From positions 310,001-374,000 of IMG/VR virus record IMGVR_UViG_3300028558_000791: 64,000 bases of DNA; one strand, written 5' to 3'. This document shows, one piece after another, positions 8,501 to 53,067 of the stretch (the stretch's first letter is position 1; every line of letters begins with the position of its first letter). Under the pieces are notes generated by a model. The model saw only the letters and a list, made by a program, of their open reading frames with translations. It was not told the origin of the DNA and did no database searches. This DNA is from a virus. The position numbers and the translations under genes were made by a program.

Positions 8501-11500
8501 CAAGGACCAACCGTTGCTGCTATCAAGAACATTGGACAAGTTATTACACATGTTGAACCTGAGGTAATTGAATCGGCATTTGAAATCTGGTCATTAGGTA
8601 GCAGCCTATTGTTCCCAGTTAGTGTGCAAACTACTGGAAGCTTCCAGCTCTTACCAGCTCACTATGGTAATGGAGTGCTCATTGATCAGCCAGAACAAAC
8701 TATTACTATGCCTGTTAATTCAAACTTACGTTTGGAAGAAGGCACATTTGAAACTTGGGTACTACCACAATGGAACGGCTTAGATAATGATGCCTCATTG
8801 GCATTCCATATAACTAGAGATGGTTATGCTATAGATCCGTATAGACTATTTATCGGAGGATCAGAGTATCATCCAGAATTAGATGGTAAGTATAACTTCA
8901 CACTAAATAAGCAGTCAAATGTTACAGGTCGTCCTAATAGGAATAAAGACGGTATTTTCATCTATTATGATAAAGATATCTCTGGCAGCTTCTACCGTTG
9001 GTATGTGGAAGTTATCGATGGATATGTGGCTCCTGACAATCATATTTACCAATTCCAGATTTTCTCCTCAGGTAAATTCTACGATGTTAAACCTATTGGT
9101 GGGGTTAAGCCATCTAATATGAGTACCTTCACTGGTACTAGTAAAGTTAATCTAACCATTAGACCATCATTTGATGGATATGGAATTGATGAAGGTATTA
9201 CTTTTGTTTCTGATGTTGAGCATTACATTTTGGACTTTGGTTTGACCAAAGATTCCAATAGACTTTCTATTTTCAAAGATGTAAGTGGATACATGAACTT
9301 CCGAGTTTATGATAGAGACCACAAGATGTATACTATTAGTGCCGATGTATCATCTTGGAAAAATAACGTACCTCACATGGTAGCAGCTTCTTGGAAGTTG
9401 AATACTAAGAACAATCGTGATGAGATGCATTTGTTCATTGATGGGTTGGAAGTTCCAAATATCATCAAGTACGGACAGAAACTACAGCCGTATCTACATG
9501 AGAAATTTAGAACTGTTAACCCAGAAGAAATAGTGGGTCTAGCAACTCGCGATATCGTTGGTTCAACAGATTTGGCCACTTTAGAAGGTTCTACTCTAGT
9601 TACATCGAGTATCAACTTTAGTGATTTTAAAGTGTTCATTGGAGATACTATCTTCATTAACGAAAATGGATTTTCTCCGGTTGGATATACGATTATCAAT
9701 ATCAATGGCCAATCATTAACTCTAAATTCGGCGATGCCTGTCACTATGAATGGTGGTAGATTCTCTGTTAATCAGACTGAGTTCCCAGTTTCATCTGAGA
9801 TTAACATTGCTCCAAATATCGCAGTAACTACAGTACATACATTTGCTACCGGCACTGATCTAACTACAATCTCGGGATCTGCTACAGTAACATCTGTTGG
9901 AACTAACTTTAGTGCGTTGGGCGTCAAACCAGGCTTCATACTAAGAATAGATAATTCTTCTTTTGCTCTAACCTATAGCATTGTTCAAGTAAGTGGTAAT
10001 TCACTCACCATTACCGATCCATCTCCACTAAGTCTATCTGGAGTTACTTTCCAGATCTACTCAAATGTAGAGAACGAAATTCCTGGTGTTAGGGCGCTTC
10101 ATCCAGCCTACAGCATTACTCAAGATGCTAATTTCAATAATATTTTGACTGTATCAAATGATGTTTTTGCTAACGATCTAATCCTAATTAGAACGCTCGG
10201 CTTAAACTTTAAGGATATCAAAAAACAATATTATGTTTGGAGTTCTCAGATAGAGAACGTTCTACAGACTCAATTGCCTCCACCAATCAATTTGGACCAG
10301 GCCAACATCACTAGAATTATTACACCAACCACTGCTATTGGTCCAGCTAATTCTACTTTAATGGCAGGCGTATTTGTTTCTAACTATCTACCAACAGCAA
10401 AACCATCTAATGCTCAAGTTGGTAGAACTATACAAGCTACTATTAGCGGTACTAACGTTGATTTCTCTGTGCCAGTACAAGTTACTATTAATGGTATTTC
10501 AGGCATTAATACAATCAATGAGACTATTACATTTACTAACTATGGTACTCTAGATTTTACTAACACTTTTGTTACAGTTAACTACGTATGGGTTAATGTT
10601 AAACCAGTCAATGCAAGTAAAAATGCATTAGCATTAGAGTTGAGAGAAAAATACCCAATGACTCATGGCGAGTCCAGTGGTCTAGTTCCAGTTATTAGAT
10701 ATAGCTATCATATCAATGGAGGTTATACTCTAGGCGGTAATGGTATTGATAATACAGTAACCGATCTAAACAATACGTTTAGTGCGCTGGATATCAACAA
10801 CTATTTGATTATCCATTCGCCACCAACTGTAGCTGGATTCTATTTGATTACCGGGCTATCTACTGATAGACACTCAATAACTATTCAGCCAACTGCCGCA
10901 TCTTTCTCAGTGCCACTACCTTATTTTGCTAACGGAGCATACCAGGTACTAAACACTACGCAATATCGTAGCGGCTTGCAAAACGGATATTTTACTCTAG
11001 AAGCTGGAGTTCTTCCAGGTCAACAGTATTTCCTTGACCAAGGATTCTATGAACTAGAGTACTCTACTTACGCTAGAATTAAGTTTGATGCTCTTAACAC
11101 CAAGATGTATATCGGAAGTGATTTCCAGGGACATAGTCAAGCAAATTCTATTATCGACCAAGCAACTATCTACTCAATCATGTTGACCGATACTAGAGTT
11201 GGTGAAGTAATTGCCCTACACAAACATTCTGTCACCAAAGATTTCAACTCTCTAAGGCCACCTAAAGCAGACTCTAATACGTTAGCGCTGATTGACTTTG
11301 ATACTTATCCATTTACTAATGATGCCAGCTTTTATGCTAGCACCAACAATGACCATAAACATTTCCAATCAGATTTTACGGTTAATGATAACTTCAGTCA
11401 GAGCTTGGTAATCTTGGATGAGCCGCTAGTTTTATCTAACGATGGAATATTGGATACTAGACATCAAGGAACTATTGAATTCTGGATGAGTCCAATATTC

Positions 11501-12712
11501 GATACATCTAATGATCCAAACACTAGATACTACTTTGATGCCTTTGGCGCCGTAACTGAAACCGTCACTAGTGTTAGCAACGTAGCAGTCAAGTTGTCTT
11601 CTCCAGCTTCTAAGATTTTAAGTGTTACTCTGGCAGCAGGTGATCCTAAAATTGATTACTTTGCTGGTGGTCAGTTGGAGATTGATACTCAGCATGCCAT
11701 CCAAGAAGAATCTATGGTTACAGGAATGTCCATTGTAACAGTCTCTCAGCCAATTCTTCAAGTCATTACTGTTAAGATTGCAGGAGACCTAACTGAGAAG
11801 GATTACTTTGCTAACGGAAGCGTCGGAGCTGATGGAAAAACTATCTTCTTGGGTATCTCAACTCCACAAGCAAATGTAGATGTTATCGTTACTTATCAGA
11901 CAACGAGCAATAACAACGTCACGCTCAATACCCAGGTCATTAGACTCAACAGGAAGCTACCTGCGCAAAATTCTAAGGTTGTTGTAACCTATATTCCAAC
12001 CGGACTCCAGGGAGACCGCCTCTCAATTTATAAAGACCCATACGGTTACATTAATTTTACCATCCGTGCTTCTGACTCTGACTTTGTAGTTAGAGCGCCA
12101 GTTCGCTGGGCACAAAACACCTGGCACCGTGTCAAAGCAAGTTACAAGATCAATAATGGTCTTGGACAAGATGAAATGAGACTATTCCTAGATGGATATC
12201 AGTATACTGATGTGCTATTTGGTGAAGGACTGTCTTTTGGCAAGTTCCCAATGGTTTATGGTTCTGTAGCAGTAGGAGATGGTTACAGTTTGGTAGGCAG
12301 CATTTCTTTCAAGGACCCAATTAACACGCTGTATATTGGATCTGATTTTAATAAGAATAACCCAATCTATACCCTGTTGGATAATTTTAGGGTCAGCAAT
12401 CTCTCTAGACCGATCTATGCCCCTTATGGAGAGCCTCTAGATGCAAACTTTAGCAGTAACTTAAGTACGGTTTTCCCAGTTACAAAAGACTTATACACAA
12501 CTTTACTGATAGATTTTGACAGGTTGAATGCCTTGAATACAGATTTTGCCACTTTGATTGATAGAGCTAATGGAGCTTTTGATTTTACTGTGAATATCTT
12601 CGATTCTTTTGGTATAGTTAGTGGTAGTGCGAAAGTCAAAGAAGTACTTGAAAACCTTATCAATATCCTAAAGCCAGCCAACTGCAGGGTGTTTATTAAG
12701 TATATTACCTGA
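5558..12712 (+). CDS. Giant baseplate/tail protein with LamG-like domains
   Basis: This 2384-residue protein starts at an ATG overlapping the previous stop (ATGA). Two regions show concanavalin A/LamG-like strand patterns. The first has 'GTFETWVLPQW' near 1062, 'NRLSIFKD' near 1234 and 'MHLFIDG' near 1292; its expected closing strand 'MYIGSDF' appears only near 1851. The second has 'GTIEFWMSP' near 1971, 'DRLSIYKDPYGYINF' near 2153, 'MRLFLDG' near 2209 and 'LYIGSDF' near 2259. Between 1325 and 1430 two beta modules of about 80-100 residues repeat. LamG domains commonly bind glycans, so host-surface binding or baseplate assembly is likely. No enzyme motif is visible. It is followed eight bases later by another giant tail gene. 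Confidence 0.75.
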   Translation: MIATLRVVNLAINSSTSIDVSFTEALTGDLVTGNVSILSQTENVPNSEVLQISVNGNVLSITCQPLTPYSAFYLQFQSTPGNPFISLNGDAKISEDGVSNRMIIIGPLPSDNPVNDYLQSFYQNNIYKTSDTTTVVNKYIQSIAVNFARALYDIRQLGNENYLSFTIVDEVHTKGETPFERLYEEGAYDVFRLGFGLSEAPVSTTFVFDSFPSYPVTLQRQLVTEIIKASSNDTDGTFNINTLVFNLSNKPVTRVNSITFTLTTADPVFVYDIDKLGYQILNSTFDQDFASSYLLLEDNQVKINESILSDPNFSLDQIFHIVIEYEYKGLGIQVDPTTVNTFATLQSVREVLPPIINIFSLKHAPITDASNNTVTTGGVFFIDPNSGTGTPHPAFMVEIPFSLSGLPSSPGVYSIDYSTGTVYVYGANSDNDGTGPSPPLATYYYKFTFTPDIDYVYDSDLLELVALPLGNLIDQAGTIAFNYEQVLIPGVDYVADTHIESINERIGNKLNALNSLTTLHSPITNVFQIFNETSGEIYILDRWNDDTVYFRFNSPPRVLNQIGENSKFFTVTNELLGINTTTTNANNLRIFVILLANNTIINSSQDGIGASFNTSLQFTNGNVFNRELWFDQEFTAGFNVDRIQVPGEYVVDYKNGVVYVAVSSTQSNDIGTVTYKKNSIVPSFPHVISVDDIYNRISVLNPKNKQFSYLSFGDGFIVPQNLDISDEAFLNGVTSSPYQIFQNQVGAFVQSTFVNGVTNAVKYVRSVYEFNDLTNSSNPINFGIVSTSSNFNITVGSINRQSFESVQFDGSNYFITLNENIPYLSPGITFTFDVVRTSDLQPLWNGSGTVVPGNPLKLILPGIGSPQIGDLVKVTYSFSIVPLERVIVDYNKGDFFTDYTYVADEILVSYEYGDNVIDFRKNLNLPTGSNYYVSYKAGALRDALLRNFGTLVNVPDLSTFDLSLDRERYRDALYAALSSFIQGPTVAAIKNIGQVITHVEPEVIESAFEIWSLGSSLLFPVSVQTTGSFQLLPAHYGNGVLIDQPEQTITMPVNSNLRLEEGTFETWVLPQWNGLDNDASLAFHITRDGYAIDPYRLFIGGSEYHPELDGKYNFTLNKQSNVTGRPNRNKDGIFIYYDKDISGSFYRWYVEVIDGYVAPDNHIYQFQIFSSGKFYDVKPIGGVKPSNMSTFTGTSKVNLTIRPSFDGYGIDEGITFVSDVEHYILDFGLTKDSNRLSIFKDVSGYMNFRVYDRDHKMYTISADVSSWKNNVPHMVAASWKLNTKNNRDEMHLFIDGLEVPNIIKYGQKLQPYLHEKFRTVNPEEIVGLATRDIVGSTDLATLEGSTLVTSSINFSDFKVFIGDTIFINENGFSPVGYTIININGQSLTLNSAMPVTMNGGRFSVNQTEFPVSSEINIAPNIAVTTVHTFATGTDLTTISGSATVTSVGTNFSALGVKPGFILRIDNSSFALTYSIVQVSGNSLTITDPSPLSLSGVTFQIYSNVENEIPGVRALHPAYSITQDANFNNILTVSNDVFANDLILIRTLGLNFKDIKKQYYVWSSQIENVLQTQLPPPINLDQANITRIITPTTAIGPANSTLMAGVFVSNYLPTAKPSNAQVGRTIQATISGTNVDFSVPVQVTINGISGINTINETITFTNYGTLDFTNTFVTVNYVWVNVKPVNASKNALALELREKYPMTHGESSGLVPVIRYSYHINGGYTLGGNGIDNTVTDLNNTFSALDINNYLIIHSPPTVAGFYLITGLSTDRHSITIQPTAASFSVPLPYFANGAYQVLNTTQYRSGLQNGYFTLEAGVLPGQQYFLDQGFYELEYSTYARIKFDALNTKMYIGSDFQGHSQANSIIDQATIYSIMLTDTRVGEVIALHKHSVTKDFNSLRPPKADSNTLALIDFDTYPFTNDASFYASTNNDHKHFQSDFTVNDNFSQSLVILDEPLVLSNDGILDTRHQGTIEFWMSPIFDTSNDPNTRYYFDAFGAVTETVTSVSNVAVKLSSPASKILSVTLAAGDPKIDYFAGGQLEIDTQHAIQEESMVTGMSIVTVSQPILQVITVKIAGDLTEKDYFANGSVGADGKTIFLGISTPQANVDVIVTYQTTSNNNVTLNTQVIRLNRKLPAQNSKVVVTYIPTGLQGDRLSIYKDPYGYINFTIRASDSDFVVRAPVRWAQNTWHRVKASYKINNGLGQDEMRLFLDGYQYTDVLFGEGLSFGKFPMVYGSVAVGDGYSLVGSISFKDPINTLYIGSDFNKNNPIYTLLDNFRVSNLSRPIYAPYGEPLDANFSSNLSTVFPVTKDLYTTLLIDFDRLNALNTDFATLIDRANGAFDFTVNIFDSFGIVSGSAKVKEVLENLINILKPANCRVFIKYIT

Positions 12713-40565: not shown

Positions 40566-40837
40566 TTGAAAATCGCTCCATAAGACTAGAAGACTATCTC
40601 AAGCAATACGACCTTGAGAAGAGTATTAGTTTTATGAGGGCGATTTTTCATTTCAGTTACACAAAAACTCGTGGTGATGATGGTGTTTATATTTGGTTTG
40701 GCGATAAAGATTGGGGTACTAATTCCAAATGCTTTATAGCTCATGTCGGCTATTGTTCATTCATCTTTATTGATTATACAGAAGATCAAGTGATCGACAA
40801 GTATGATCGATATTACAAACTAAAGGCATTTACATGA
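40562..40837 (+). CDS. Hypothetical protein
   Basis: A 91-residue aromatic-rich protein ('DGVYIWFGDKDWG', 'VGYCSFIFIDYTEDQV'). Likely a small alpha/beta fold. Four-base overlaps tie it to both neighbours. No family recognised. Confidence 0.6.
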   Translation: MIENRSIRLEDYLKQYDLEKSISFMRAIFHFSYTKTRGDDGVYIWFGDKDWGTNSKCFIAHVGYCSFIFIDYTEDQVIDKYDRYYKLKAFT

Positions 40838-41376
40838 AGGTATATTTTGTTGGCGCTCATAGCACTGGTAAGACGACGTGTGCTCGCTATGTTTCCGAGC
40901 AATACAAACTGCCTATGATTACAGAGGTGGCAAGAGCTGTCCTGTCTGAAAAGGAATTGCATTTAGATAGCTTGCGATACAATATGGATTTGGTAGATGA
41001 TTACCAACAGTCTATTTTCTACAGGCAGCTTTCTGAAGAAACAAAGCATGATACTTTTGTCTCAGATAGAAGTTTTGACTGTCTTGCTTACGCGGCCCAG
41101 CATACGCGCATTCTATCTAAGTTACTTACCAGCGATCAGATGATGCCGTATGTTGAAAAACTAAGGGACTCAGACGTATTTATATTCTTCGTTCGACCCT
41201 CCAAGGCTACCCTGAAGGCTGACGGCGTACGAGAAAGTTTAACGTGGGATGGCGTGGTCGCAATCGATGCCATGGTGAAGTTTATGTTAGAGATGTGGCA
41301 GCTTAAGCACTATCAGATTAATATGGAGAATATGCAAGAGCGTATTCAGCTAATTAACGCGGTGCTTGAGCGATAA
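40834..41376 (+). CDS. P-loop kinase-like ATPase (NadR/AAA_28 type)
   Basis: The 180-residue protein opens 'MKVYFVGAHSTGKTT', with Walker A Lys13. The later 'TFVSDRSFDCLAYAAQH' is a D-R-S-F motif of the lid and base-contact region of the NadR/AAA_28 type of nucleotide kinases. 'IFFVRPSKATLKADGVRESL' follows the lid. It should phosphorylate a nucleoside or nicotinamide-type substrate, but the substrate cannot be read. The 3' end overlaps the convergent methyltransferase-like gene by 23 bases, an uncommon arrangement that leaves no room for a separate terminator. Confidence 0.75.
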   Translation: MKVYFVGAHSTGKTTCARYVSEQYKLPMITEVARAVLSEKELHLDSLRYNMDLVDDYQQSIFYRQLSEETKHDTFVSDRSFDCLAYAAQHTRILSKLLTSDQMMPYVEKLRDSDVFIFFVRPSKATLKADGVRESLTWDGVVAIDAMVKFMLEMWQLKHYQINMENMQERIQLINAVLER

Positions 41377-42193
41377 ACGTCTGACAACACTCTCCAAACT
41401 GATAAGTGGGTTTTACCACTGTAACAGCAGAAAATCTAGTATTCAGAATGGCAGTAAGCTCGCTAACCGTTGGAAAGTGATGTTTAGCCGTTTTGCCCCT
41501 ATATACATCTATGGTAGCAACATCGGCCGGAGAGAATCCGTTATGTGGAGACGCTTTAAGTATCATCTGCACGGCCTTCCAGACATCATCTTGGCTGACG
41601 CCCTCTTCAAATGATCTTTGGAGCGCCATAGCTACCCTAAATTTGAATTCATGAAAGTTGATATGATAACCGTCACTATAACCATCATGAACATCGTGAA
41701 GAATAGTTGTAACGGTTTCTCTTCTTTCGGGCATTACAAAACAGCGAGTTAGAAAAATGCCATTATTATCTAGCGCCAAAGATACTCTAGTAACTAATCT
41801 TGACACACCTTCTGGATTGAAAAATACTAACGATCCATCTGCCAAAACAATGTCTTTTGATCTATTTACTATGTAGTAGTTAAACCAGTCCCCATGAACG
41901 GCGGTACGTTGGTTAGGAATATCTCCTGGCCAGACATACTGAATCATGGCCTCAGACTTATCTATAGCTAATAGGTTAGTGGGAGTTGGGAAATTCATAG
42001 TAGCAATTTCAGGAGTAACTCCTAATAAAACAGCTTGAGCATATCCGTCAACAGGCGCATATCCATCTGAGGACCAAACACCAAGTGAATCCTCTAAGAT
42101 AGTTGTATCTTCGATATTTGGTCGCAATGGTGGTGCCCAATGGTCCCACATGGTGGCAATGGCATTCCATGTATCTTGTAAGTCATTTGGCAT
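41354..42193 (-). CDS. SAM-dependent methyltransferase-like protein
   Basis: A 279-residue protein resembling class I methyltransferases. 'QAVLLGVTPEIATM' could be the first glycine-poor loop, and 'NLLAIDKSEAMIQYVW' shows the acidic end of strand 2 ('AIDKSEAM') that binds SAM. 'DIVLADGSLVFF' is a plausible strand 4. The N-terminal 40 residues are unusual. No target is identifiable. A GGAGA site precedes the ATG. The gene overlaps the PaaK-like gene by 11 bases, so the pair is translated together, and both lie downstream of a fibre gene. Confidence in the fold is moderate, in the substrate nil. Confidence 0.6.
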   Translation of the reverse strand: MPNDLQDTWNAIATMWDHWAPPLRPNIEDTTILEDSLGVWSSDGYAPVDGYAQAVLLGVTPEIATMNFPTPTNLLAIDKSEAMIQYVWPGDIPNQRTAVHGDWFNYYIVNRSKDIVLADGSLVFFNPEGVSRLVTRVSLALDNNGIFLTRCFVMPERRETVTTILHDVHDGYSDGYHINFHEFKFRVAMALQRSFEEGVSQDDVWKAVQMILKASPHNGFSPADVATIDVYRGKTAKHHFPTVSELTAILNTRFSAVTVVKPTYQFGECCQTFIAQAPR

Positions 42194-43586
42194 TGATATT
42201 CTCCGGCTCTACAACGATTATTTTCAATTTTCCATTAGGACGTTCGATAACTTCGCTCTTCTTTATATCGACATGAACAGTAGATTCTACCTCTTCTTGA
42301 ATGCATTGAATCATTTTTAACCCATGTTCGTCGGTCCACTCTTTATTAGGAACTACTCTTAATGTGAAGTTATCGATATTGTGTTGAATAACTTGGAACT
42401 GACGAACCCCGCCTATTTGACGTATACCTAACATAATTCCAGTAGATACTTTACGACGATTGCCGGCTAAGAATAGCATTGGATGCCTTCTACCATTGAT
42501 ATGTTTTAGAAGTGGTAAACCGCGACCACAGGAACAAGGCTCATTGGCAAGCGTTACTTCGTCAATGATATCGTATCTAATAAATGGATTAATAAAATTG
42601 GTTAAGCTTGTAACAACTAGCTTACCAGTTTCTCCAGGCTTACATGGATTATTTTGTTCATTCAGAACTTCTACGTATACACTCTCTGCATGGATATGTA
42701 ATCCATTACCAGTCGGACAAGAAGATGCAATGTAACCGGTTTCGTTAGCCGAATAAAGATTGACTACTTTGGCTCCAAAAGTTCTTTCAAGTCTTTCTTT
42801 AATTTGTGGAGTAAGAGTCTCTCCAATGGTTTGGATTGTTTCCAAGTCTGGTAGTTTTCTACCACTCTCTTCAACCAAATCAGCTAACACTTCTAAATTA
42901 GAAGGCATACTGATTAGATAATTTGGATTAACAGTTCTGAGCCAAGTTAATTGGACTTTAGGGTCTTGACGTATATCCATACCATGAACTGGTACGCATT
43001 TGAAGACACTGTATCCATGAACTTTTGGTAGCCAAGTAGGTATTGAAATGCCCTTAACAGCAATTTCATAGTCGCTCTTGTTCATACCAATCAATCTAAT
43101 AGATGCCATACGTTTCATGGGGTCCATGCCACCCCATTCAAAATCACGCATAGCCATTGCTTGCCACCACAAATTATCTCTATCTGTTTTGTATAGAGAG
43201 ATAGGCGTGCCGTTAGTTCCTGAAGTATGTATAGGCGAGGGGCTTGGAATCATCCCTTCTGGTAGTTTACTAACCTTAATACTAGAGTAATGATCTTGAT
43301 ACTTCTTGCGAGTTAGTAGTGGTATTTTTCTAAACTCTTGAAAACTTGTAATTGGTTTCCTTCCAATACCACACTGATCTAACATCAGCCTATAGTAAGG
43401 CGAGTTATCATAAGAGTGTTGTAGTAGATTATTTATCTGTTGAAGTTGGGCCTGCTCTAATTGTTCCGGACTTAACCATTGTGTTTTAGTTAGTTCAGTA
43501 TAGGCGCTAACAACAGACGTAAACTCAGGAATAGGAACCATCGGCCAGGTTGAGCCTGGAGTGGATGTAAACTTAAAAAAACTCAT
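42183..43586 (-). CDS. PaaK/CapK-like adenylate-forming enzyme
   Basis: This 467-residue protein resembles phenylacetate-CoA ligase and CapK-type proteins. 'IHTSGTNGTPISLYKT' (about 120-133) is the ATP-binding loop, 'NLYSANETGYIASSCP' the next family block and 'FIRYDIIDEVTL' the ribose-contact motif, followed by 'CSCGRGLPLLKHINGRR'. The family activates a carboxylate as an acyl-adenylate and usually passes it to CoA or another acceptor. Its closest relatives outside catabolism occur in capsule and surface-polymer clusters. It lies 23 bases after a fibre gene and overlaps the methyltransferase-like gene. The acid it activates is unknown; no obvious ribosome site was seen. Confidence 0.78.
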   Translation of the reverse strand: MSFFKFTSTPGSTWPMVPIPEFTSVVSAYTELTKTQWLSPEQLEQAQLQQINNLLQHSYDNSPYYRLMLDQCGIGRKPITSFQEFRKIPLLTRKKYQDHYSSIKVSKLPEGMIPSPSPIHTSGTNGTPISLYKTDRDNLWWQAMAMRDFEWGGMDPMKRMASIRLIGMNKSDYEIAVKGISIPTWLPKVHGYSVFKCVPVHGMDIRQDPKVQLTWLRTVNPNYLISMPSNLEVLADLVEESGRKLPDLETIQTIGETLTPQIKERLERTFGAKVVNLYSANETGYIASSCPTGNGLHIHAESVYVEVLNEQNNPCKPGETGKLVVTSLTNFINPFIRYDIIDEVTLANEPCSCGRGLPLLKHINGRRHPMLFLAGNRRKVSTGIMLGIRQIGGVRQFQVIQHNIDNFTLRVVPNKEWTDEHGLKMIQCIQEEVESTVHVDIKKSEVIERPNGKLKIIVVEPENINAK

Positions 43587-43609
43587 TGTGACTTAGATAT
43601 AACCAAAGG

Positions 43610-46600
43610 TTAACCGCCAGTAAATCCAGGAACCTCAAACCATTCGGCTGTGGCCATTACACTTATTATATTGGTTGCATCGCCCCTAAAATTAAATCTG
43701 ATAATGTTATCAGACGCACTAATACTAAAGTCCCAAACGGTTCCATTTGGAACATCATGTATAACAAATTGATCATCAATAATTGCTGTGCCGTTAACAT
43801 TATGAACTAAAATTTGACGACTGAACATTGCAGCTTGTTCATTATTGATGCTATTGGCAATACATGTGACTCTCATAGCATAAGCTTGACCTGGCTCTAG
43901 GAATAACTCTCCACTAAATTCATCTCTAAGTGTTATTGGAGCTTCATTAAATGAAGTTCCTTTTACAAAGTATCTTGCAAATTGAGCATCTCCGGGACTA
44001 CCTAAATAGCCGCCTGCATGAGATAGTTGTCCGGTTCTTATTGCTTTACCACCATGTCCGCCAGGAACGGTTCCATAATCTGCGGTAACACTGTTTTGAT
44101 AGCCGCCGCCAATGGTTCCTTTACCGGCTGAAATGCTGTTATTAATTCCTCCAGCAATTACGCTATAGCCATCACCACCAGAGATGACGTTATTAGTGCC
44201 ACCACCAACTGTATCAAAGTGGTCTTGTGTTCTATTGCTAGAACCTCCAGCAATTGTTCCATATGGTTGAGTAACGGTGTTGTTAGAACCGCCACCAATG
44301 GAAGCGTCGTTTGCACCAGATAAAACTTGGTTAAACTGGCCGCCACTAATGACTGCATATGATGCGCTATTATTGTTGTTAGCGCCACCACTTATTACGG
44401 CTCCAGAGCTGTTGCTGACGTCATTACCAATACCTCCAGCAATCGTGGCATAATCTGCTGTAACAATAGCATGGCCATGACCTCCACTGATAGTGCCTCC
44501 TGTAGTGTCACCAATGGAATGTCCTTCTCCGCCAACAATAACATTCCATTTACGGCCAGGCGTGCCAGTACTATAAATAGTGTTATTGCCACCACCACCA
44601 ATAAATGAGAATGTTGGTGGTCCACCGAGACCACTAGTATCATAAATTAAGTTACTGAATCCACCAAGTATTACGTCATATTCGCCTTGTGATTTGTTAT
44701 TAAGACCACTTAGAATGACCGCATAGTTGTTGCCAGTGCCGGGTGATAGGTATGGGTTAGTTTGTTCAGCAAAATTTAACTGACCTGAAAATGCGGGACT
44801 GACATCTGATTGATTTAGTTTGGTAGATACTAAATTAGAACGACCAATAACATCATCAAATACTATATCTCCCTGAAACCATTTAGCTGAAAATGGGCCA
44901 GCCCAAGATTCGTTGAACTGATTTGAACTATTATCAATGCTTACAATTGAGTTTCCGCCAGGATTAGCTACCCAAGTATAATTATTGTAGGAATCGTAAG
45001 CCATTCCCATAAATGGAGCGCCACTTAATCCAGATGTTGGAATCTTAATGGTAGCTGTTATTGATGGAGAACTAGTTATAGCTGTAGATACTCTAAAGAC
45101 AGTATTGTTACTATCATTAATCCAGATATCACCATCGTTATTACCATCAGAGATGATGTCTCCAGCAAAACCACCAAGACTTAAAAGTCCATTTGCTCCG
45201 CTATTAAGATTTTGGAACTCAAACTCTTGAAGAAGTTGGCTTCCCAAAGAAGTGGTCCATAATCCCCAACCAAAAGAATTGTGATGTACTGGTACAACAC
45301 CGCCGAGTTGATAACCTGGTGTATAACCCGAACCATTACCATAGTTACCAAATATAGTGCTGAGGCCGTCATCAACAGAACAGAACTGGTAGATATAGCC
45401 GGCACTGCCGGTGACTAGATAACCACCTTCGCCACCAATGAAGCACATATCTTCCCAGTCGGCCGTGCCGTTTGGTATGATTTGGAAAAGATCCGGATCA
45501 ATTTCAGTAGGGTAATTTGCAATCATATCAGAGATACTAAATCTCTGAACAACATCAGGTTGCGGATCGCTGACTGGACCTCTAGCCTTACATACTACCC
45601 AAAGGTAGTCTGCATTTCCGGTAGTGGTGATAGCTGTTGTCTGTCCAGTTTCAGTTCCTTTGGAATTACCAACACCAACAACTGCGGCACTGTTCTTATT
45701 GATAACATATACTTTACCACTATTATTAGAGGTTACATATACATTTGTTGAGTCGCCAGTAATTTTCCAACCTTGGAACGATCCTGACAAGCCAACATTA
45801 TTAGATAATACTGGGGAACCAGATGTAACATTTAGTTTTTGAACAGTTGGGGTCGAGGCATTAGTAACCCATAAATCATATGTTGCTGAATCAAACCATA
45901 AACCTACTGGGGTGATAAATAATTGATCTGGGACCAATCTCAAATTATCATATACATTACCTGGTGGTGGTAAAGTTCCAGCATCAATATTCAGATTTAC
46001 TGTATCAAATGCGCCCGATGAAAAAGTTCCGCCGCTTGGAATATTAATTGTTCCAAATGCTCCGATTCCAGTTCCATTATTTTGAAATTGCAATTGATTG
46101 GTAGATGATGGAATAGATGTGTATACAATTTCTAATTGACCACCAAAGAATTTAACCCAAGCTTCTGTACCTAATCCGGTAGAGATAGCATCCATACCGC
46201 CAGCGTAGCCACCAGTACTTAAGGTCCAAATATAAGTGCCATCAAAAGCTGGCATACCAAAACCGTATGGAGAATGACTTACTGAAGCAATTACAGCCTC
46301 ACTACCAAGCGTTGTTGATATTCTATATGCTACTGAACCATTATTAGTTTGCCAAATAGTGGAATCATCACTTATAATACATCGTCCCACACTAGGGTTA
46401 GCTGTAGGTATGAATGCAATAGGCGCAGAAAGATTAGATGGATCAAATCTATGAATGCCTCCACTACTCTCATGGAAATTATTAACCCATAAGCTTCCAA
46501 AAGCAAACGTGCAACCATATGCTACACCAAGACCAGGACTATCTTCGGTATATGAATCAAGCACAGTCATACTTGATGGATCTATTTTGTAAATCTTTCC

Positions 46601-47623
46601 ACCATCATATCCGCCGCTTGTGACAAATAGGAAGCCACCACCAAAACACATATTACCATAATATGATCCAGAAGCATCGGGACCTAGTGTCTGAAGAGGT
46701 GGTACTGAATTAGGGTATGCTAGAAGTGCAGCAGATTTAGAATATTTCTCAACTCTAGAGTTATTAAGTGGCGTACTGGTACTTGGGCCAGTAGAAACAT
46801 AAATATTGTTTCCATCAACAGCAATATCAAGGAAAAATTCTCCAGTACTACCAGTAGAAATTCTACCAACTATATTATTAGTTGCTCTTTCGATAATGAA
46901 AATGTGACCATAAGGGAAACTGGCTGGTCCAACTTGGTTATATCCAAGAGATGTAACAAAAATGTGAGTGTCATCTGATGTTAGTAACCCACTATTATTG
47001 CTTAGTGGTAGCTCAACTATCTTTGTAATTTCAGGGGTAGCAGGGTTTATTCTAAGTACGCCATTGCTTCCGCCATTGGAGACCCACAAATCTGTTCCAT
47101 CAAATATGATTCCAGCAGGCCCCTGAAAAGACTCTTTAGCTTGGAGATATTTGCCCGCATCATTATTGAATTCACCTTGATGACCTTTTCTTACAGGAAT
47201 AGTATTGATACCAATTACTTCTTGTGTAACTGGATTTCCTTGTAAGTCACCAGCAAAATGTACGTTAGCTGGTTGAGTGCCTGGTGTCCAGGCAAGTCCG
47301 TCCCAGACATATACATCACCAGGAGCTGGAGGGACGGTAGAAATAGGGCGGCCGTGAATACCAATGACCTGGGGATGTTCTAATGTTCCGCCCAAATCAT
47401 TTTCAAGTTCAATTACTCTTAAATTGCCAACAATATTTTCAAGTGCATCAAAGCGAGCACGAACGGTGGCATAAAGACCACTTGGTTTTACTCCTAGTTC
47501 CTCTTCAATGGCGATTATCGCCACTCTTAATTGCTCAACAGATCCGCCAGTTACTGGCTGTCCGTCAAGAATTGGCTTGAGGGTGAAAACGGTGTCTATG
47601 GCTGCTGGGTATTTTGTTACCAT
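43610..47623 (-). CDS. Large tail fibre with beta-propeller-like and YadA-head-like repeats
   Basis: This 1337-residue protein starts with a helical stalk-like region ('SVEQLRVAIIAIEEELG'), then 'VWDGLAWTPG', a motif common in phage fibre N-termini. Residues about 155-900 hold repeats of the YncE/NHL beta-propeller pattern, for example 'FDGTDLWVSNGGSNGVLRI' and 'SDDTHIFVTS'. From about 975 to 1200 a dozen turns of 'GGxxN' type follow, such as 'ATIAGGIGNDVSNSSGAVIS' and 'YGTIAGGSSNRT', matching the left-handed parallel roll of the YadA adhesin head. 'GGYLGSPGDAQ' precedes the C-terminal domain, as in other phage fibres. It should form trimers and bind the host. It is expressed from the divergent control region. 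Confidence 0.82.
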   Translation of the reverse strand: MVTKYPAAIDTVFTLKPILDGQPVTGGSVEQLRVAIIAIEEELGVKPSGLYATVRARFDALENIVGNLRVIELENDLGGTLEHPQVIGIHGRPISTVPPAPGDVYVWDGLAWTPGTQPANVHFAGDLQGNPVTQEVIGINTIPVRKGHQGEFNNDAGKYLQAKESFQGPAGIIFDGTDLWVSNGGSNGVLRINPATPEITKIVELPLSNNSGLLTSDDTHIFVTSLGYNQVGPASFPYGHIFIIERATNNIVGRISTGSTGEFFLDIAVDGNNIYVSTGPSTSTPLNNSRVEKYSKSAALLAYPNSVPPLQTLGPDASGSYYGNMCFGGGFLFVTSGGYDGGKIYKIDPSSMTVLDSYTEDSPGLGVAYGCTFAFGSLWVNNFHESSGGIHRFDPSNLSAPIAFIPTANPSVGRCIISDDSTIWQTNNGSVAYRISTTLGSEAVIASVSHSPYGFGMPAFDGTYIWTLSTGGYAGGMDAISTGLGTEAWVKFFGGQLEIVYTSIPSSTNQLQFQNNGTGIGAFGTINIPSGGTFSSGAFDTVNLNIDAGTLPPPGNVYDNLRLVPDQLFITPVGLWFDSATYDLWVTNASTPTVQKLNVTSGSPVLSNNVGLSGSFQGWKITGDSTNVYVTSNNSGKVYVINKNSAAVVGVGNSKGTETGQTTAITTTGNADYLWVVCKARGPVSDPQPDVVQRFSISDMIANYPTEIDPDLFQIIPNGTADWEDMCFIGGEGGYLVTGSAGYIYQFCSVDDGLSTIFGNYGNGSGYTPGYQLGGVVPVHHNSFGWGLWTTSLGSQLLQEFEFQNLNSGANGLLSLGGFAGDIISDGNNDGDIWINDSNNTVFRVSTAITSSPSITATIKIPTSGLSGAPFMGMAYDSYNNYTWVANPGGNSIVSIDNSSNQFNESWAGPFSAKWFQGDIVFDDVIGRSNLVSTKLNQSDVSPAFSGQLNFAEQTNPYLSPGTGNNYAVILSGLNNKSQGEYDVILGGFSNLIYDTSGLGGPPTFSFIGGGGNNTIYSTGTPGRKWNVIVGGEGHSIGDTTGGTISGGHGHAIVTADYATIAGGIGNDVSNSSGAVISGGANNNNSASYAVISGGQFNQVLSGANDASIGGGSNNTVTQPYGTIAGGSSNRTQDHFDTVGGGTNNVISGGDGYSVIAGGINNSISAGKGTIGGGYQNSVTADYGTVPGGHGGKAIRTGQLSHAGGYLGSPGDAQFARYFVKGTSFNEAPITLRDEFSGELFLEPGQAYAMRVTCIANSINNEQAAMFSRQILVHNVNGTAIIDDQFVIHDVPNGTVWDFSISASDNIIRFNFRGDATNIISVMATAEWFEVPGFTGG
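43990..44700 (-). repeat. YadA-head-like coding repeat of the fibre
   Basis: About twelve repeats of roughly 14-17 codons encode 'GG-x-x-N' turns with alternating hydrophobic residues. The pattern is seen in the translation; the DNA copies are related but not identical. Confidence 0.7.
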
Positions 47624-47640
47624 CTTGTAAGTCCTGCTAT

Positions 47641-47728
47641 AATATCAAAATTTTAGCATAAGCAGAGAATCTGACTATCTATATCTGAAGAACTCTTAAA
47701 GTCAAGAATATACTAAAATTTTGATATT
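47641..47728. promoter_or_regulatory. Divergent control region with perfect 16-bp inverted repeat
   Basis: The left arm AATATCAAAATTTTAG (47641-47656) is the exact reverse complement of the right arm CTAAAATTTTGATATT (47713-47728). Read outward in each direction both arms follow TATGC or TATAC, giving a shared 20-base element TAT(A/G)CTAAAATTTTGATATT upstream of each fibre gene. TATACT at 47709-47714 is a good -10. The region is the only gap of more than 100 bases and lies between divergent fibre genes, so it probably holds matching promoters or a regulator site. Confidence 0.6.
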
Positions 47729-47757
47729 CTTGTGAGCTTTTAGTTCAATGAGGATAC

Positions 47758-49425
47758 ATGAGCGGAATTTTAACTCCAGGATACCTAAGGTGGGATGGCA
47801 CCAAATATGTTCTAGACCACGATGTAGAAATCGTTGGTCCATCAGGCTCACAGGGTCCGGCAGGTATTGCCGGACCAGTGGGTCCAGCCGGTCCTAATGG
47901 TACTGCTTCAGGCGATCTGTTAGGAACTTTCCCAGGTCCCATATCAGTGGTTGGCCTAACCGGCATCTCTGGCACTGTCAGTTATGGCTCGGCCGTAACC
48001 AATCCAACGATTACTCAAGTAGCTACGGCAGGTACAACCGGCCAATCAATGACCTGGAAAGCACAGAATGCTACCCTATTCGGTGGTAATGCCGTAATTC
48101 AAAGTGGAACTGGTACTACTGCTGGTCTTATTCAATTTTTAGTAGGTAATACCGCTGCAGCATATTTTGATTCCAATCAGGCTTTTAGATTTGGACCAAA
48201 TGCTACCTCCACCGTAACAGGGCCAAATGGAGTTTCTCCATTAGCTGGTACTGATTATATCTTTGGAAACAATGCTGCCGGAAGTATATTGTCTGAAATA
48301 TTTACAGAATCATCTTCACAAAGAGCTGGTTACTTTGCATACAATGCAGCGGCTGGTGGAACTGGTGTCAGCGGAATCAGTATACAGTCTCCTGGAACAA
48401 CTTATACTGTTGGAGCATACCAGGGTCAGGGAGTTATCGAGCAATCAGGTCTCGCAACTTCTGCAATGATTTTTAGCAAAGTCTTGGGCGACGGTTCATC
48501 TCGTGGTGTGACTGGTCGCGTTTTCCAATCTGGAGCTTGGAGCATTGGAGATTTAAGCAGTTCATCTTCTTTTAACCAAGCCGGTTTAACTGGTCCAGTA
48601 ATGAATTTCGCTCCTGTCGGTGGAACTTTGACCACTACATCTGGCCAAGCCCTAATATTCGCACAAAGTTTCGGACCAAGCAGCCAGGGCCTTCTTAACC
48701 TTCAAGGAAATATTGGAGTTAACTTACTATCTGGAACTACATTAGTAGCAAATACTTTAGCTTCTAAGTTTATTACTAATGTTGGTAGAAGAATTAAAGT
48801 TAGAACTACTACAACTACTCCTGATACTATGACGGGAGCTGATGAGGTTCTTTCTATTGGTGCAATCGCAACTCCTTTTACTGTTAATTTACCAGCCACT
48901 CCAACATCTGGTGATACCTATATTATTAAGGATGCTCTGGGAAATGCGGGTAACTTTAATATTACTGTGTCTGGTAACGGTAGCAACATTGACGGATTCT
49001 CAACTATACTTATTAGCACCAACTATACAGAAGCATCTTTTGTATACAACGGTACGACATGGATTTCATCGCTAACCAACAATATCTCACCAAATACCGG
49101 ATACTCTTCTGTTATAAACGTAGCAAGCGGCGGTAGCGCTAGTATAGTAGGTCTTGATCAGCTTTTCGTTTGTGACCCAACTAGTAATACTTGTACTATT
49201 ACAGCTCCAGCAACCCCAACTGTTAACTTAAGATTTACTGTAAAGGATGCTACATTTACTGCTAATACACATAACATTGTTGTTCAGGGTAATGGTAGGA
49301 CACTAGAAGACCCGGCCACACTTGGTACATATACTTCCCCAATTAATATCAACGTAGCTGGCCGTTCAGCTACTTGGGCTTATGACCCAACCAGAAATAG
49401 ATACACCCTAGTTTCAAGGATATAA
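47758..49425 (+). CDS. Collagen-like tail fibre
   Basis: A 555-residue protein. Residues about 27-48 hold a short run of Gly-X-Y triplets ('GPSGSQGPAGIAGPVGPAGP'), which forms a collagen-type trimer. 'FPGPISVVGLTGISGTVSYG' follows. The rest is Ser/Thr/Gly/Asn-rich beta sheet, with two related C-terminal segments ('FTVNLPATPTSGDTYIIKD' and 'CTITAPATPTVNLRFTVKD'). Phage fibres often use collagen-like stalks with such beta heads. GAGGA precedes the ATG. It is transcribed divergently from the fibre at 43610. No enzyme motif is visible. Confidence 0.76.
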   Translation: MSGILTPGYLRWDGTKYVLDHDVEIVGPSGSQGPAGIAGPVGPAGPNGTASGDLLGTFPGPISVVGLTGISGTVSYGSAVTNPTITQVATAGTTGQSMTWKAQNATLFGGNAVIQSGTGTTAGLIQFLVGNTAAAYFDSNQAFRFGPNATSTVTGPNGVSPLAGTDYIFGNNAAGSILSEIFTESSSQRAGYFAYNAAAGGTGVSGISIQSPGTTYTVGAYQGQGVIEQSGLATSAMIFSKVLGDGSSRGVTGRVFQSGAWSIGDLSSSSSFNQAGLTGPVMNFAPVGGTLTTTSGQALIFAQSFGPSSQGLLNLQGNIGVNLLSGTTLVANTLASKFITNVGRRIKVRTTTTTPDTMTGADEVLSIGAIATPFTVNLPATPTSGDTYIIKDALGNAGNFNITVSGNGSNIDGFSTILISTNYTEASFVYNGTTWISSLTNNISPNTGYSSVINVASGGSASIVGLDQLFVCDPTSNTCTITAPATPTVNLRFTVKDATFTANTHNIVVQGNGRTLEDPATLGTYTSPININVAGRSATWAYDPTRNRYTLVSRI

Positions 49426-49427
49426 GA

Positions 49428-49787
49428 ATGAACTCTGTAGATAAATTATTCAAATTGGCCGATCGTTTGGCTCGTAAAATCTCATTGGGACAAAAGGTTG
49501 CTGGTGACTTTCAAGATGTATTGCAAGCAGCCGGTTTATGGGATAAAGCAGCAGAAGTATCTCCAATGTTAGCTACTGCTGGAGTAGATGATGGTCCTGT
49601 TGCCATAACTATTCATTTTGATAAGGCTTTGAATATTAAGTTTCTTGTTAGTGCCACTCCACCAGCAGCCGCCACTAAATTAGCAGCTATGCTTACCGCT
49701 AAATATGCTGCTGCAATGAAGGCAGCCGTAGTTGCTGCTAAGCTCACGGTTATGGAAACTATGGATGTTAAGTGGTTAACCTTCTAA
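49428..49787 (+). CDS. Hypothetical Ala-rich protein
   Basis: A 119-residue protein opening with a helix 'MNSVDKLFKLADRLARKI', then a strand pair, then an Ala/Lys-rich helix ('AAKLTVMETMDVK'). AAGGA precedes the ATG, two bases after the fibre stop. It may be a small assembly partner of the fibre or of the oxidoreductase, but this is inferred from position. Confidence 0.58.
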   Translation: MNSVDKLFKLADRLARKISLGQKVAGDFQDVLQAAGLWDKAAEVSPMLATAGVDDGPVAITIHFDKALNIKFLVSATPPAAATKLAAMLTAKYAAAMKAAVVAAKLTVMETMDVKWLTF

Positions 49788-49818
49788 AGAAATTCTAACC
49801 CCGATATAATATGAGGGC

Positions 49819-51027
49819 ATGAAAGATTTTGATGTCGGTATTATTGGGGCTGGTGTAGCGGGCGCTTTTGCAACTTTGAAGTTAGCAAAAGACCATAAAA
49901 ACGTTAAAGCTATTCTTTTTGATTTGGGTAGACCTCCTATGAAGCGCAGAAGACAACTGGAAGGTTGGCTTGGCTGCTTGCCAAATAGTGATGGAAAACT
50001 ATATCAATCTGATGTGTCCAAAGTTGCAGAACTTACTGGACTTCGCAGAGCCAAATCGGCTCACACTTGGTTTCGACATGTATTAGAACAAGTCGATGAA
50101 TTCAAAGTAATCAAAGACCGCGCTCCTACAACGTCTTTGGAAAAGAAAATCAAGAAGCTAGGATATGATATTGCTCTCAACGATCATATTCAGATCTATC
50201 CAAAAGAGATTCATGCCCTATCTAAACACATGGCTGAACTTATTGAGGTAGGCAAGAATATTACTTTCAATTTTGATAGTGAAGTTGTTAGAATAGTTAA
50301 GCAGAAGAATGTCTTCGTTATCACTACTGAAGAACATGAATATCGCTGCAAGAAAATTATCATTGCTGTTGGTAGAAGTGGCTGGCGTTGGGCTAGAGCA
50401 CTATATGGTAGCTTTGGAATTGTAGATAATAATGACATTGCTCGTTTTGGTATTCGTGTAGAAACTAACTCTAGCGTTATGAAGGATTTCAATAGATCCA
50501 ATTGTACTCTTACTAAGTCCGACCTAGAGATAGGACCATTATCTTGGTATGGTACTGTTATTCCAGAAGACCATATAGATTTAGCTATTTCAGCTTTCCG
50601 TTCCAATGAGAATAGATGGAAGACGGATAAAGTTTCGTTTAATCTAATAGGTAATAGACCATTTCCTGATACTGGATTTGAACAGACAGATAGAATTGGA
50701 AAACTAACTTTCGTTCTTGCCAATGACAGAATTATTAAAGAAAGAGTCTCTACTATTTTAACTGGTAAGAGTCGAATATCTATTATCCCAGAGTATGAAT
50801 GGTTAAAGCCAGTCATTACTGAGCTATCTGCTATTATACCAGAGATTACTACCAAAGCTTACTTCCATGTTCCTACTATCGTACCATCTGCTCCCAAGAT
50901 AAACATTGGAGATAATTTGGAAACTGAAGTAGATGGAATGTTTGTGGCTGGCGAAAGCGCTGGTATCCATGGTATATTATCAGCAGGCATCATGGGCATC
51001 ATTGCGGCAGATGCCGTATGCAAATGA
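49819..51027 (+). CDS. FAD-dependent oxidoreductase-like protein
   Basis: This 402-residue protein opens 'DVGIIGAGVAGAFATLKLA', a GxGxxG dinucleotide site, and 'AILFDLGRP' places an acidic strand-2 residue as usual for FAD. The middle 'CKKIIIAVGRSGW' matches the second Rossmann part of the HI0933/BaiN and NAD(P)/FAD dehydrogenase type, and 'GMFVAGESAGIHGILSAGIM' matches the C-terminal FAD-binding GD-like motif. It should perform a flavin redox reaction; the substrate is unknown. The ATG has a close GAGGG. It sits between a fibre gene and an exonuclease gene, an unusual setting for such an enzyme in a phage. Confidence 0.8.
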   Translation: MKDFDVGIIGAGVAGAFATLKLAKDHKNVKAILFDLGRPPMKRRRQLEGWLGCLPNSDGKLYQSDVSKVAELTGLRRAKSAHTWFRHVLEQVDEFKVIKDRAPTTSLEKKIKKLGYDIALNDHIQIYPKEIHALSKHMAELIEVGKNITFNFDSEVVRIVKQKNVFVITTEEHEYRCKKIIIAVGRSGWRWARALYGSFGIVDNNDIARFGIRVETNSSVMKDFNRSNCTLTKSDLEIGPLSWYGTVIPEDHIDLAISAFRSNENRWKTDKVSFNLIGNRPFPDTGFEQTDRIGKLTFVLANDRIIKERVSTILTGKSRISIIPEYEWLKPVITELSAIIPEITTKAYFHVPTIVPSAPKINIGDNLETEVDGMFVAGESAGIHGILSAGIMGIIAADAVCK

Positions 51028-51034
51028 GATAAAC

Positions 51035-51406
51035 ATGCCAACTAAAACACAGACTAAAACTAATACAGATGCAACACCCAATCTACCTCAAGTAGGTGAA
51101 GAGGGGAAAGACGGTAATACCAAATACAGTCTTAGTAAATTCGAATATGATTTGTATCATGAAGAAGATGACAAAGCCGAAAAGGTAATTAGAGTAAAAC
51201 GAATTGCTATGCCCAATAAAGGCGAGAAGTGGAAAATCTTTGAAGATAATAAAGTGATGTTTATTGTCGAAGGCTCTAAGCTAAATAACAAAGAAAAAGA
51301 TTTCTTGCGCACAATTGACGGCGTAAATTTCCTGATTACTCAATACAAGGCCGGCATCAAGTCCTTCAATGCTCTGAAAAACGAGATCAAGAAAAAACTA
51401 AAATAA
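51035..51406 (+). CDS. Hypothetical basic protein
   Basis: A 123-residue protein starting at the ATG at 51035, seven bases after the oxidoreductase stop; an in-frame ATG at 50933 would overlap it by about 95 bases. The first 30 residues are polar and likely disordered, the rest is mixed helix and strand with a Lys-rich end ('ALKNEIKKKLK'). Tandem stops (TAA TAG) close it. No family recognised. Confidence 0.6.
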   Translation: MPTKTQTKTNTDATPNLPQVGEEGKDGNTKYSLSKFEYDLYHEEDDKAEKVIRVKRIAMPNKGEKWKIFEDNKVMFIVEGSKLNNKEKDFLRTIDGVNFLITQYKAGIKSFNALKNEIKKKLK

Positions 51407-51412
51407 TAGGGG

Positions 51413-51440
51413 TTGACTCTCGGCCCTCGATTCTTACATT
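51413..51440 (+). promoter_or_regulatory. Sigma-70-type promoter
   Basis: TTGACT at 51413-51418 and TACATT at 51435-51440 have a 16-base spacer, the same spacing as the promoter at 16760. They lie just behind a gene with tandem stops and upstream of the exonuclease gene at 51473. Confidence 0.5.
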
Positions 51441-51472
51441 AGTCGGAGCATCCAGCACTAGAGGTGTATTGT

Positions 51473-52093
51473 ATGAATTATGTATTTTATGTTGCCGATA
51501 TTGAAACGACTGGACTAGACGCTCGCAAACATGATGTGATTGAGTTGTCTCTCCATCGCTTGGGCGATTCCAGCGAGAATGCCCAGAAAACCTGGTGTCT
51601 AAAACCACTAACACCAGAAACCACCGAAGCAGCCGCGCTGAAAATTAACGGCCACAAACTAGAGGACATAACCCATAAGACCAAAGAAGGTCGTGAGCGT
51701 TATCTGGATCCAATTCCTACACTAGTTGAGATTGAAGATTGGTTAGCTGAAGATGGCGTGCCTGCTGAGAAGCGCTTTCTCATTGGTCAGAACATTGCCT
51801 TCGATAAAGAACGATTGGTTCAATTGTGGAATAAGTGCGATTCAGATGGATCATTTCCGTTTGGACGCAGACTGATTGATACCATGATTGTTGAGTTGTT
51901 CTTTGACTTCTGTAAGGGCCAGTTCGCAGAAGGATATAGTCTAAAGAATTTAGGCAAGAAGTATGGTATTAAGAACGATAAGGCTCACACCGCTGCGGCT
52001 GACGTAAAGGCTACTAAAGAAATCTTTGAGAAGCAGGTTGAGTTGATGCAGAAACTTATCAAGTTAGGTGTAGAAGCTAAGCTGTTTGAATGA
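51473..52093 (+). CDS. DnaQ-like DEDDh 3'-5' exonuclease
   Basis: A 206-residue protein. 'VADIETTGLDARKHDVIEL' supplies the first Asp and Glu (Asp9, Glu11), 'IGQNIAFDKERLVQLW' the second Asp and 'KAHTAAADVKAT' the His and last Asp of the DEDDh set. Such enzymes degrade single-stranded DNA or RNA from the 3' end, as the DNA polymerase III proofreading subunit or RNase T does. It might support replication fidelity or nucleotide recycling. I chose the ATG at 51473, with AGAGG upstream, over the GTG at 51464. It overlaps the next gene by four bases. Confidence 0.82.
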   Translation: MNYVFYVADIETTGLDARKHDVIELSLHRLGDSSENAQKTWCLKPLTPETTEAAALKINGHKLEDITHKTKEGRERYLDPIPTLVEIEDWLAEDGVPAEKRFLIGQNIAFDKERLVQLWNKCDSDGSFPFGRRLIDTMIVELFFDFCKGQFAEGYSLKNLGKKYGIKNDKAHTAAADVKATKEIFEKQVELMQKLIKLGVEAKLFE

Positions 52094-53067
52094 AGATATT
52101 GTACGCGGCCTCTAACAATCAGAATGCCAAGATTCAGCTCTCACGTTTCCTAAGGGCTATGGAAGGATCTGCGCATCAGATTAAGATTGCAGCGTATAAA
52201 AAATCGTCTCTTAAGAATGTTAATATCGATTGGACTCTAGACGCACTATTAAACATCTATCGACCAGACTTACTGTCCCTGTACGGTGACAACTTAAACA
52301 TCTATCTGGAGCAAGTCAAGAGCTATGCGCCTGATTTAATTATTAGTGACTTAGAGTATTTCACCAGCAGTGTAGCTATCGATTTGAACATCACCCTGTG
52401 GCAGTGTAGTTCCTCACTAATCAACTACGCCCTTGTTAGGAATGAGAAGTATAATCTTGGTCTCTTCAAATATCATGCGCATGCATTGAATAGAGATACT
52501 ATACATTCTCAGAGAATGATAAACGTTCTAGATAACTCCAATCGTAATTTTGTATACTCCCATTTCGGTGACATGGATGAACCCCCAACGCTGTTAGATG
52601 GATTTCAATGGGTGCGTCCCTATCATCAAATCGCCAGGAATTCTATCCCTTGCCAACATCACATAACTGCGGCCTTTTCTGTACTTGATAAGCACGTGAT
52701 AGATTTTTTGAAGAAGTATCCCGATAGTGTAGCTTTCATGGATGATCCGCAAGAACGCTATCAAAACGTGCAGGTCAAGGATATAAGGATCGTAGACGAG
52801 TATTACTGTAATCTCAAAAATTCTGCATTCTACATTTGCCAGGGCCAAACTAGTTTCTTGGCAGATGCTTTTTACAATGGTAAGTACGCTCTAATCTTTC
52901 CAGATTATGAGGATGCTGAGTCTATTACTAATAGTCAGCTTGCTCAGAAAATAGGCATTGGACGTATTATGATTTTCACAGAGGGACTAGATGGTTTCTC
53001 CATGAAAGTTGAGCCTGCGTGCTCAGACTCAATTAAGTATCTGCACGAACATATAGAGGAACTATGA
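52090..53067 (+). CDS. GT-B-like glycosyltransferase, MurG/UGT type
   Basis: A 325-residue protein opening 'MKILYAASNNQNAKIQLSRF' with a loop as in GT-B N-domains. 'YAPDLIISDLEYF' is a typical strand-loop in MurG-like and UGT-like enzymes. Near the C-terminus 'FYICQGQTSFLADAFYNGKY' and 'IFPDYEDAESITNSQLAQKI' match the donor-binding region of GT28-type proteins, where a Gln/Asp contacts the sugar nucleotide. The match is by pattern. ATGA joins it to the exonuclease and to the HAD gene. It would add a sugar from UDP or dTDP to an unknown acceptor. Confidence 0.58.
   Translation: MKILYAASNNQNAKIQLSRFLRAMEGSAHQIKIAAYKKSSLKNVNIDWTLDALLNIYRPDLLSLYGDNLNIYLEQVKSYAPDLIISDLEYFTSSVAIDLNITLWQCSSSLINYALVRNEKYNLGLFKYHAHALNRDTIHSQRMINVLDNSNRNFVYSHFGDMDEPPTLLDGFQWVRPYHQIARNSIPCQHHITAAFSVLDKHVIDFLKKYPDSVAFMDDPQERYQNVQVKDIRIVDEYYCNLKNSAFYICQGQTSFLADAFYNGKYALIFPDYEDAESITNSQLAQKIGIGRIMIFTEGLDGFSMKVEPACSDSIKYLHEHIEEL

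Follow-up and report, generated by a model that had tools for sequence, protein, structure and literature searches.

Enzymes that are encoded beside a surface fibre and modify it are already known. In the HMW1A-HMW1B-HMW1C arrangement the third partner, HMW1C, is a GT41 enzyme, and such enzymes glycosylate two-partner adhesins in the cytosol ahead of secretion (PMC3983070, PMC2877744); virion glycosylation is likewise known in mycobacteriophages (Freeman et al. 2023, as cited in PMC12619734). Here we describe a locus with another enzymatic complement, found in a 64,000-nucleotide stretch (hereafter the window, whose coordinates are used unless another record is named) corresponding to positions 310001-374000 of the 480,838 bp virus record IMGVR_UViG_3300028558_000791. 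On the minus strand of the window, a putative host-contact fibre of 1337 amino acids (43610-47623) is followed by a PaaK-like adenylate-forming ligase of 467 amino acids (42183-43586) and a class I S-adenosylmethionine-dependent methyltransferase-like protein of 279 amino acids (41354-42193). We give roughly even credence to the prediction that the ligase and the methyltransferase constitute a cassette that decorates the fibre.

As in the HMW1C systems, the enzymes of the window are encoded beside a giant repetitive surface protein, and bacterial members of the ligase subfamily described below often stand beside TPR-GT41 genes. The window operon differs in having an acid-activating ligase and a methyltransferase in place of a glycosyltransferase, and in having as its partner a phage fibre rather than an adhesin of the two-partner-secreted kind. 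The mycobacteriophage systems also rely on phage-encoded enzymes for virion proteins, a role which for the window pair is predicted, but in the cases known it is glycosyltransferases that act on capsid and tail-tube subunits, with no ligase/methyltransferase cassette at a fibre. The PaaK-family enzymes NatL2 (PMC7204872) and ClxA (PMC12519233) join an acid directly to an alcohol or amine, forming esters or amides in a carrier-free manner; they share the ANL fold and PaaK-type family of the window ligase, but their substrates are small aromatic molecules and they are ~21-24% identical to it in structural alignments. The PaaK/CapK-like proteins of exopolysaccharide clusters share its superfamily and residue pattern, but fall in a separate clade and have different gene neighbours. 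In the literature searched, we found no link between PaaK-type ligases and phage fibres, nor a dedicated PaaK subfamily with a coupled methyltransferase common to phage fibres and bacterial adhesins.

The window operon and its products

The open reading frame (ORF) analysis and the coordinates agree with the preliminary description of the three genes as one operon. Fibre and ligase are separated by 23 bases, and the ligase stop and methyltransferase start overlap by 11 bases (42183-42193, minus strand; ATGCCAAATGA), as judged from ORF coordinates and a comparison of junctions. The flanking genes on either side are both on the plus strand, and the trio is therefore an isolated unit on its own strand; the 3' end of the methyltransferase gene overlaps the convergent AAA gene by 23 bases. 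Promoter and terminator scans of the trio region gave signals scarcely above those of shuffles.

The fibre comprises an N-terminal attachment-like domain (residues 1-144), central repeats that look propeller-like by eye, a GGxxN beta-roll-like region (residues ~941-1230) and a C-terminal domain. The GGxxN stretch (43934-44803, minus strand, limits approximate), which is the proposed modification target, contains 13 GGxxN motifs against a shuffled mean of 1.2 and a shuffled maximum of 6. Neither Pfam nor PHROG families match the window fibre. Its repeats align with those of a fibre from another phage lineage (L201) at 34.8% identity over 273 amino acids when no composition correction is applied, and among the homologous repeat proteins the L200 fibre matches Pfam UspA1_rep (UspA1 adhesin repeat), while the L213 protein matches LbR_Ice_bind below the curated cut-off. 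It should be borne in mind that BLAST low-complexity filtering may hide repeats of the GGxxN type. In L030/L031, to which the window phage is most closely related, residues 1-144 are conserved at 71% identity. From the GGxxN region, the homologous repeat proteins and the N-terminal domain kept in relatives, we infer that the 1337-residue protein is a fibre.

That the second gene encodes a PaaK-like enzyme, as first proposed, is borne out by matches to AMP-binding and PaaK-type profiles and to PaaK-like crystal structures. The ligase matches Pfam AMP-binding (9e-11), the NCBIfam model for DVU_1553-type AMP-dependent coenzyme A (CoA) ligase (NF045666; 2.5e-41, 141.9 bits, below the equivalog cut-off of 300) and that for the phenylacetate-CoA ligase PaaK (TIGR02155; 8e-26, 90.4 bits, below the equivalog cut-off of 646); several PaaK-like NCBIfam models match, and none reaches its own curated cut-off. 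An AlphaFold2 model built on a 13-sequence alignment (predicted local distance difference test, pLDDT, 78.6) has 4r1l as its best Foldseek match in the PDB (E 6.7e-31), with PaaK1 2y27 among the top matches, and the large root-mean-square deviation of the model match is due to the orientation of domains or to parts that are poorly modelled. The ligase is a PaaK-type member of the ANL enzymes and shows the ANL/PaaK fold. The catalytic residues are invariant in the alignment, namely the A5 Glu (E282), the A7 Asp (D342), the Gly-Arg hinge (G365-R366) and the C-terminal Lys (K453), and the Cys-His-Cys-Cys set (C290/H297/C351/C353) is kept as well. The key residues are present, the sole exception being a Thr to Asn change in the phosphate loop. 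Scans of IMG/VR with the single ligase protein, or with two- or three-sequence sets, gave no match. Matches in the phage collection were set aside, as they look like bacterial DNA or unannotated faecal scaffolds, and we likewise rejected 'Acinetobacter phage MD-2021a' (CAKLQH020000001.1, L004) as a phage source of the ligase; that record has the whole of a bacterial paa catabolic operon and resembles a bacterial chromosome.

The methyltransferase itself has no Pfam match. A whole-genome search recovered full-length homologues at 25-35% identity, and the family assignment is supported by their matches to Methyltransf_11; matches to Methyltransf_11/25 profiles are seen for homologues at 28-35% identity. 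Residues common to the window protein and its homologues in the alignment include W9, W16, the LLGVTPE motif by which we name the family, D78, W88, W103 and D119; of these, LLGVTPE and D78 are candidates for SAM-binding motif I and for the acidic residue after strand 2 of a Rossmann fold. Direct homologue searches in phages, plasmids and IMG/VR gave no match, as did a first scan of genome contigs, and structure prediction returned an unusable model (pLDDT 31.7).

Recurrence on unrelated backgrounds

In a tree of 97 sequences (11 in the clade and 86 other PaaK/CapK proteins; quick method, midpoint root), the window ligase groups with all methyltransferase-linked ligases and with the fibre-linked ligases in one clade of 11 (SH-aLRT 99), separate from catabolic PaaK and from polysaccharide-cluster PaaK/CapK proteins. 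Profile scores across 399 genomes of one order are bimodal, with at least 50 matches at E 1e-104 or better followed by a gap to 1e-82. Linkage of this subfamily to fibres recurs in phages. Scanning with the ligase profile and no other query recovered L200 and L201/L202, which belong to a different phage lineage; in these contigs a GGxxN fibre (35 and 45 motifs) is followed by a glycosyltransferase (GT)-like gene and the ligase, the last two overlapping by ATGA; the GT-like gene of L200/L201 has no Pfam match. Fibre similarity alone led to L213 (IMGVR_UViG_3300020550_000015), where positions 2676-11631 encode a GGxxN fibre, an RCC1-like protein, a TPR/GT-like protein, a sulfotransferase and a second related TPR/GT-like protein, possibly a fibre sulfation and glycosylation locus in another phage.

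Among bacteria, the linkage extends to adhesins and to protein-modifying enzymes, with FHA-type adhesins and a TPR-sulfotransferase in three loci (L158, L203, L226), TPR-GT41 and FecR in six (L197, L205, L216, L227, L228, L232) and the arrangement FecR-TpsA-TpsB in L207. The same markers were absent from 80 generic PaaK loci, which were not taxon-matched, except for one weak sulfotransferase. We then compared 20 new subfamily loci with 20 generic PaaK loci from the same order, taking ~9 kb on each side: FecR was present in 8/20 subfamily and 0/20 generic loci (Fisher nominal p=0.003), GT41 in 4 versus 0, two-partner secretion (TPS) genes in 2 versus 0 and a sulfotransferase in 1 versus 2 (weak), with any marker present in 10 versus 2. 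The association of PaaK/CapK relatives with surface-polymer clusters, on which the preliminary description drew, thus stands for the generic group but not for the subfamily of the window ligase, which forms a separate clade and keeps different neighbours; the same tree and neighbourhood test led us to set aside the candidate identity of a generic CapK polysaccharide gene.

Subfamily ligases often occur in tandem, in two or three copies (L220, L223, L224, L225, L232 and others), which suggests several substrates or sequential additions. Ornithine cyclodeaminase/mu-crystallin family genes adjoin them in L215, L216, L218 and L220 (by Pfam in L216, L218 and L220, by eye in L215), and arginine/lysine/ornithine decarboxylase-like genes lie near several; such neighbours may hint at an amino-acid-like substrate.

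The coupling of ligase to methyltransferase is tight, and the two genes occur side by side in either order. A methyltransferase adjoins a ligase of the same kind in seven bacterial loci (L158 in G398, L203 in G799, L204 in G808, L205 in G880, where the genes are convergent, L197 and L198 in G544, and L214 in G1048) and in one further phage contig, which is unrelated to the window and 157,923 bp long (L165, IMGVR_UViG_3300027712_001108), compared with none of the 80 generic PaaK loci. The methyltransferase precedes the ligase in most instances, and the reverse order is seen in the window and in L198; the junction is ATGA in L165 and L197, GTGA in L158 and 11 bases in the window. In G398, where the pair forms an operon with a sulfotransferase, a glyoxalase/VOC-superfamily gene (L158:9606-10112) also lies within it.

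Relatives of the window phage itself were gathered by a ribonucleotide-reductase search, which yielded 23 IMG/VR contigs, of which roughly a dozen are syntenic. The syntenic relatives keep the genes up to an AAA_28 kinase (40834-41376); behind this gene lies a fibre locus that is hypervariable. The ligase was not found in any relative searched, and tblastn detected neither ligase nor methyltransferase in the relatives' loci examined; L030/L031 share the fibre N-terminus and continue with other proteins and no enzymes. Furthermore, the ligase-free relatives have no ORF with at least four GGxxN motifs. Since the relatives searched lack both enzymes, the literal trio is not conserved in the lineage of the window phage, and we set aside a conserved three-gene operon. 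Against unrelated backgrounds, however, the pairing of ligase with methyltransferase recurs, and so, separately, does the linkage of ligase to fibre. Between the AAA_28 kinase and a glycosyltransferase-like gene (window 41376-52090; L030-L050), the relatives in this huge-phage group hold widely differing fibre sets, homing-endonuclease-like genes and inversions.

Proposed fibre decoration and its alternatives

If the pair does serve the fibre, the ligase would adenylate a small carboxylic acid and attach it to the GGxxN beta-roll, either on its residues or on a sugar that it already carries, in a direct reaction or by way of a thioester. The methyltransferase would methylate the acid ahead of transfer or else the group once it is in place. 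We infer the fibre as substrate, the small acid as donor, the target residue and the order of these steps. The cassette and the fibre domain served by it would have arrived in the hypervariable locus together. Of the preliminary proposal, in which the unit would modify the fibre, the capsid or a host glycan, what survives draws on the recurrent pair, the ligase-fibre link and the adhesin-type neighbours, and what falls is the literal trio as a conserved feature of its lineage. More tentatively, and with rather less confidence than for the cassette in the window, we propose a toolkit common to phages and bacteria whose enzymes, working in the cytosol, would add non-sugar groups to giant beta-roll/beta-helical fibres and adhesins. 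In it, the PaaK subfamily ligase, alone or with the 'LLGVTPE' methyltransferase and in combination with TPR-GT41 or TPR-sulfotransferases, would acylate and methylate repeats and so tune adhesion and host range. Were this true, enzymatic decoration, through a chemistry that is not glycosylation, would extend to phage fibres as a further class of virion protein, and giant bacterial adhesins would be decorated by the same enzymes. A PaaK subfamily currently annotated as phenylacetate-CoA ligase would gain a function, and host recognition would have a chemical layer that sequence-based host-range prediction ignores.

A number of observations weigh against fibre decoration. The main counter-example is L165: its pair is flanked by a putative VUT-type transporter gene and a putative Pth2 gene, no fibre gene lies close by, and the record contains no GGxxN fibre elsewhere. 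None of the window phage's relatives has the trio, and L200/L201 lack a methyltransferase. Several methyltransferase homologues adjoin groESL, or a gene that is ATP-grasp-like by motif only, instead of a ligase. The phosphate loop of the window ligase reads SGTNG, where relatives have SGSTG, SGTTG or SGTSG and the canonical form is S-G-[ST]-[TS]-G. As for the matched test, 10/20 subfamily loci are without any marker, the p-values are only nominal because the genomes behind the matched loci are related to one another, and it was the first loci that served to train the marker profiles. The ATP-grasp-like motifs belong to a methyltransferase-adjacent protein family (L159, L160, L161, L206, L207) with no Pfam or PDB profile match. 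An ATP-grasp identity for this neighbour of rhizobial-type methyltransferases was not adopted, as the resemblance is by motif and a PDB profile search gave no confirming match; by its motifs, the neighbour may stand in for the ligase as carboxylate-activating partner.

The L165 arrangement would be explained if the pair made or tailored a free small molecule, or acted on a nucleotide or tRNA, and stood behind the fibre only since this locus takes up cargo, as its hypervariability would allow. PaaK-family ligases do produce small molecules, several radical S-adenosylmethionine-like genes (by eye) occur elsewhere in the L165 record, and ornithine cyclodeaminase-like genes flank several bacterial copies. 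We nevertheless regard this explanation as unlikely, given that a separate phage lineage again links the ligase to a fibre of the same repeat type and that the subfamily is enriched near FecR genes in the matched test; carrier-protein or peptide-synthetase genes were not noticed beside the pairs, though no systematic search for them was made.

The pair might alternatively remodel a host surface polysaccharide (capsule or O-antigen), a role that PaaK/CapK-like genes of exopolysaccharide clusters may have, and so exclude competing phages or change the surface of the infected host. Among plasmids, the closest homologues of the ligase are in glycosyltransferase-rich polysaccharide clusters, a weak glycosyltransferase-like gene lies 5 kb off (52090-53067), and clusters of genes for capsule modification are reported in a survey of jumbo phages (PMC7824862). 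In the tree, however, the ligases of those polysaccharide clusters lie outside the window subfamily, no genes for polysaccharide assembly were recognised next to the window pair, and bacterial loci of the subfamily show FecR, TPS and GT41, which generic PaaK loci are without; we consider polysaccharide remodelling unlikely. It is also conceivable that the bacterial pair decorates adhesins and that the phage acquired its copy by accident and only recently, the copy having no function on the fibre. The pair is absent from all sampled relatives, and it was therefore either gained in the window lineage or lost in others. An accidental origin appears highly improbable to us all the same, as both frames are intact and overlapping, the ligase catalytic residues are kept, and the window fibre has a GGxxN domain that the ligase-free relatives are without.

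Neighbouring genes

The conserved AAA_28 gene noted above (40834-41376, plus strand) is nucleotide/nucleoside kinase-like according to Pfam, and forms the left edge of the variable fibre locus. On the other side of the trio, a second fibre-like gene (47758-49425, plus strand) is divergent from the first, with a collagen-like G-P-x stretch and a match to the T4-type proximal tail fibre family. Between it and the conserved block lies a flavin adenine dinucleotide-dependent oxidoreductase-like gene (49819-51027), which is not present in the relatives' loci compared and is therefore perhaps another late arrival or a tailoring enzyme. The weak glycosyltransferase-like gene at 52090-53067 is of the MJ1255 type; it is ~50% identical to its counterparts in L036/L039 and is independent of the ligase.

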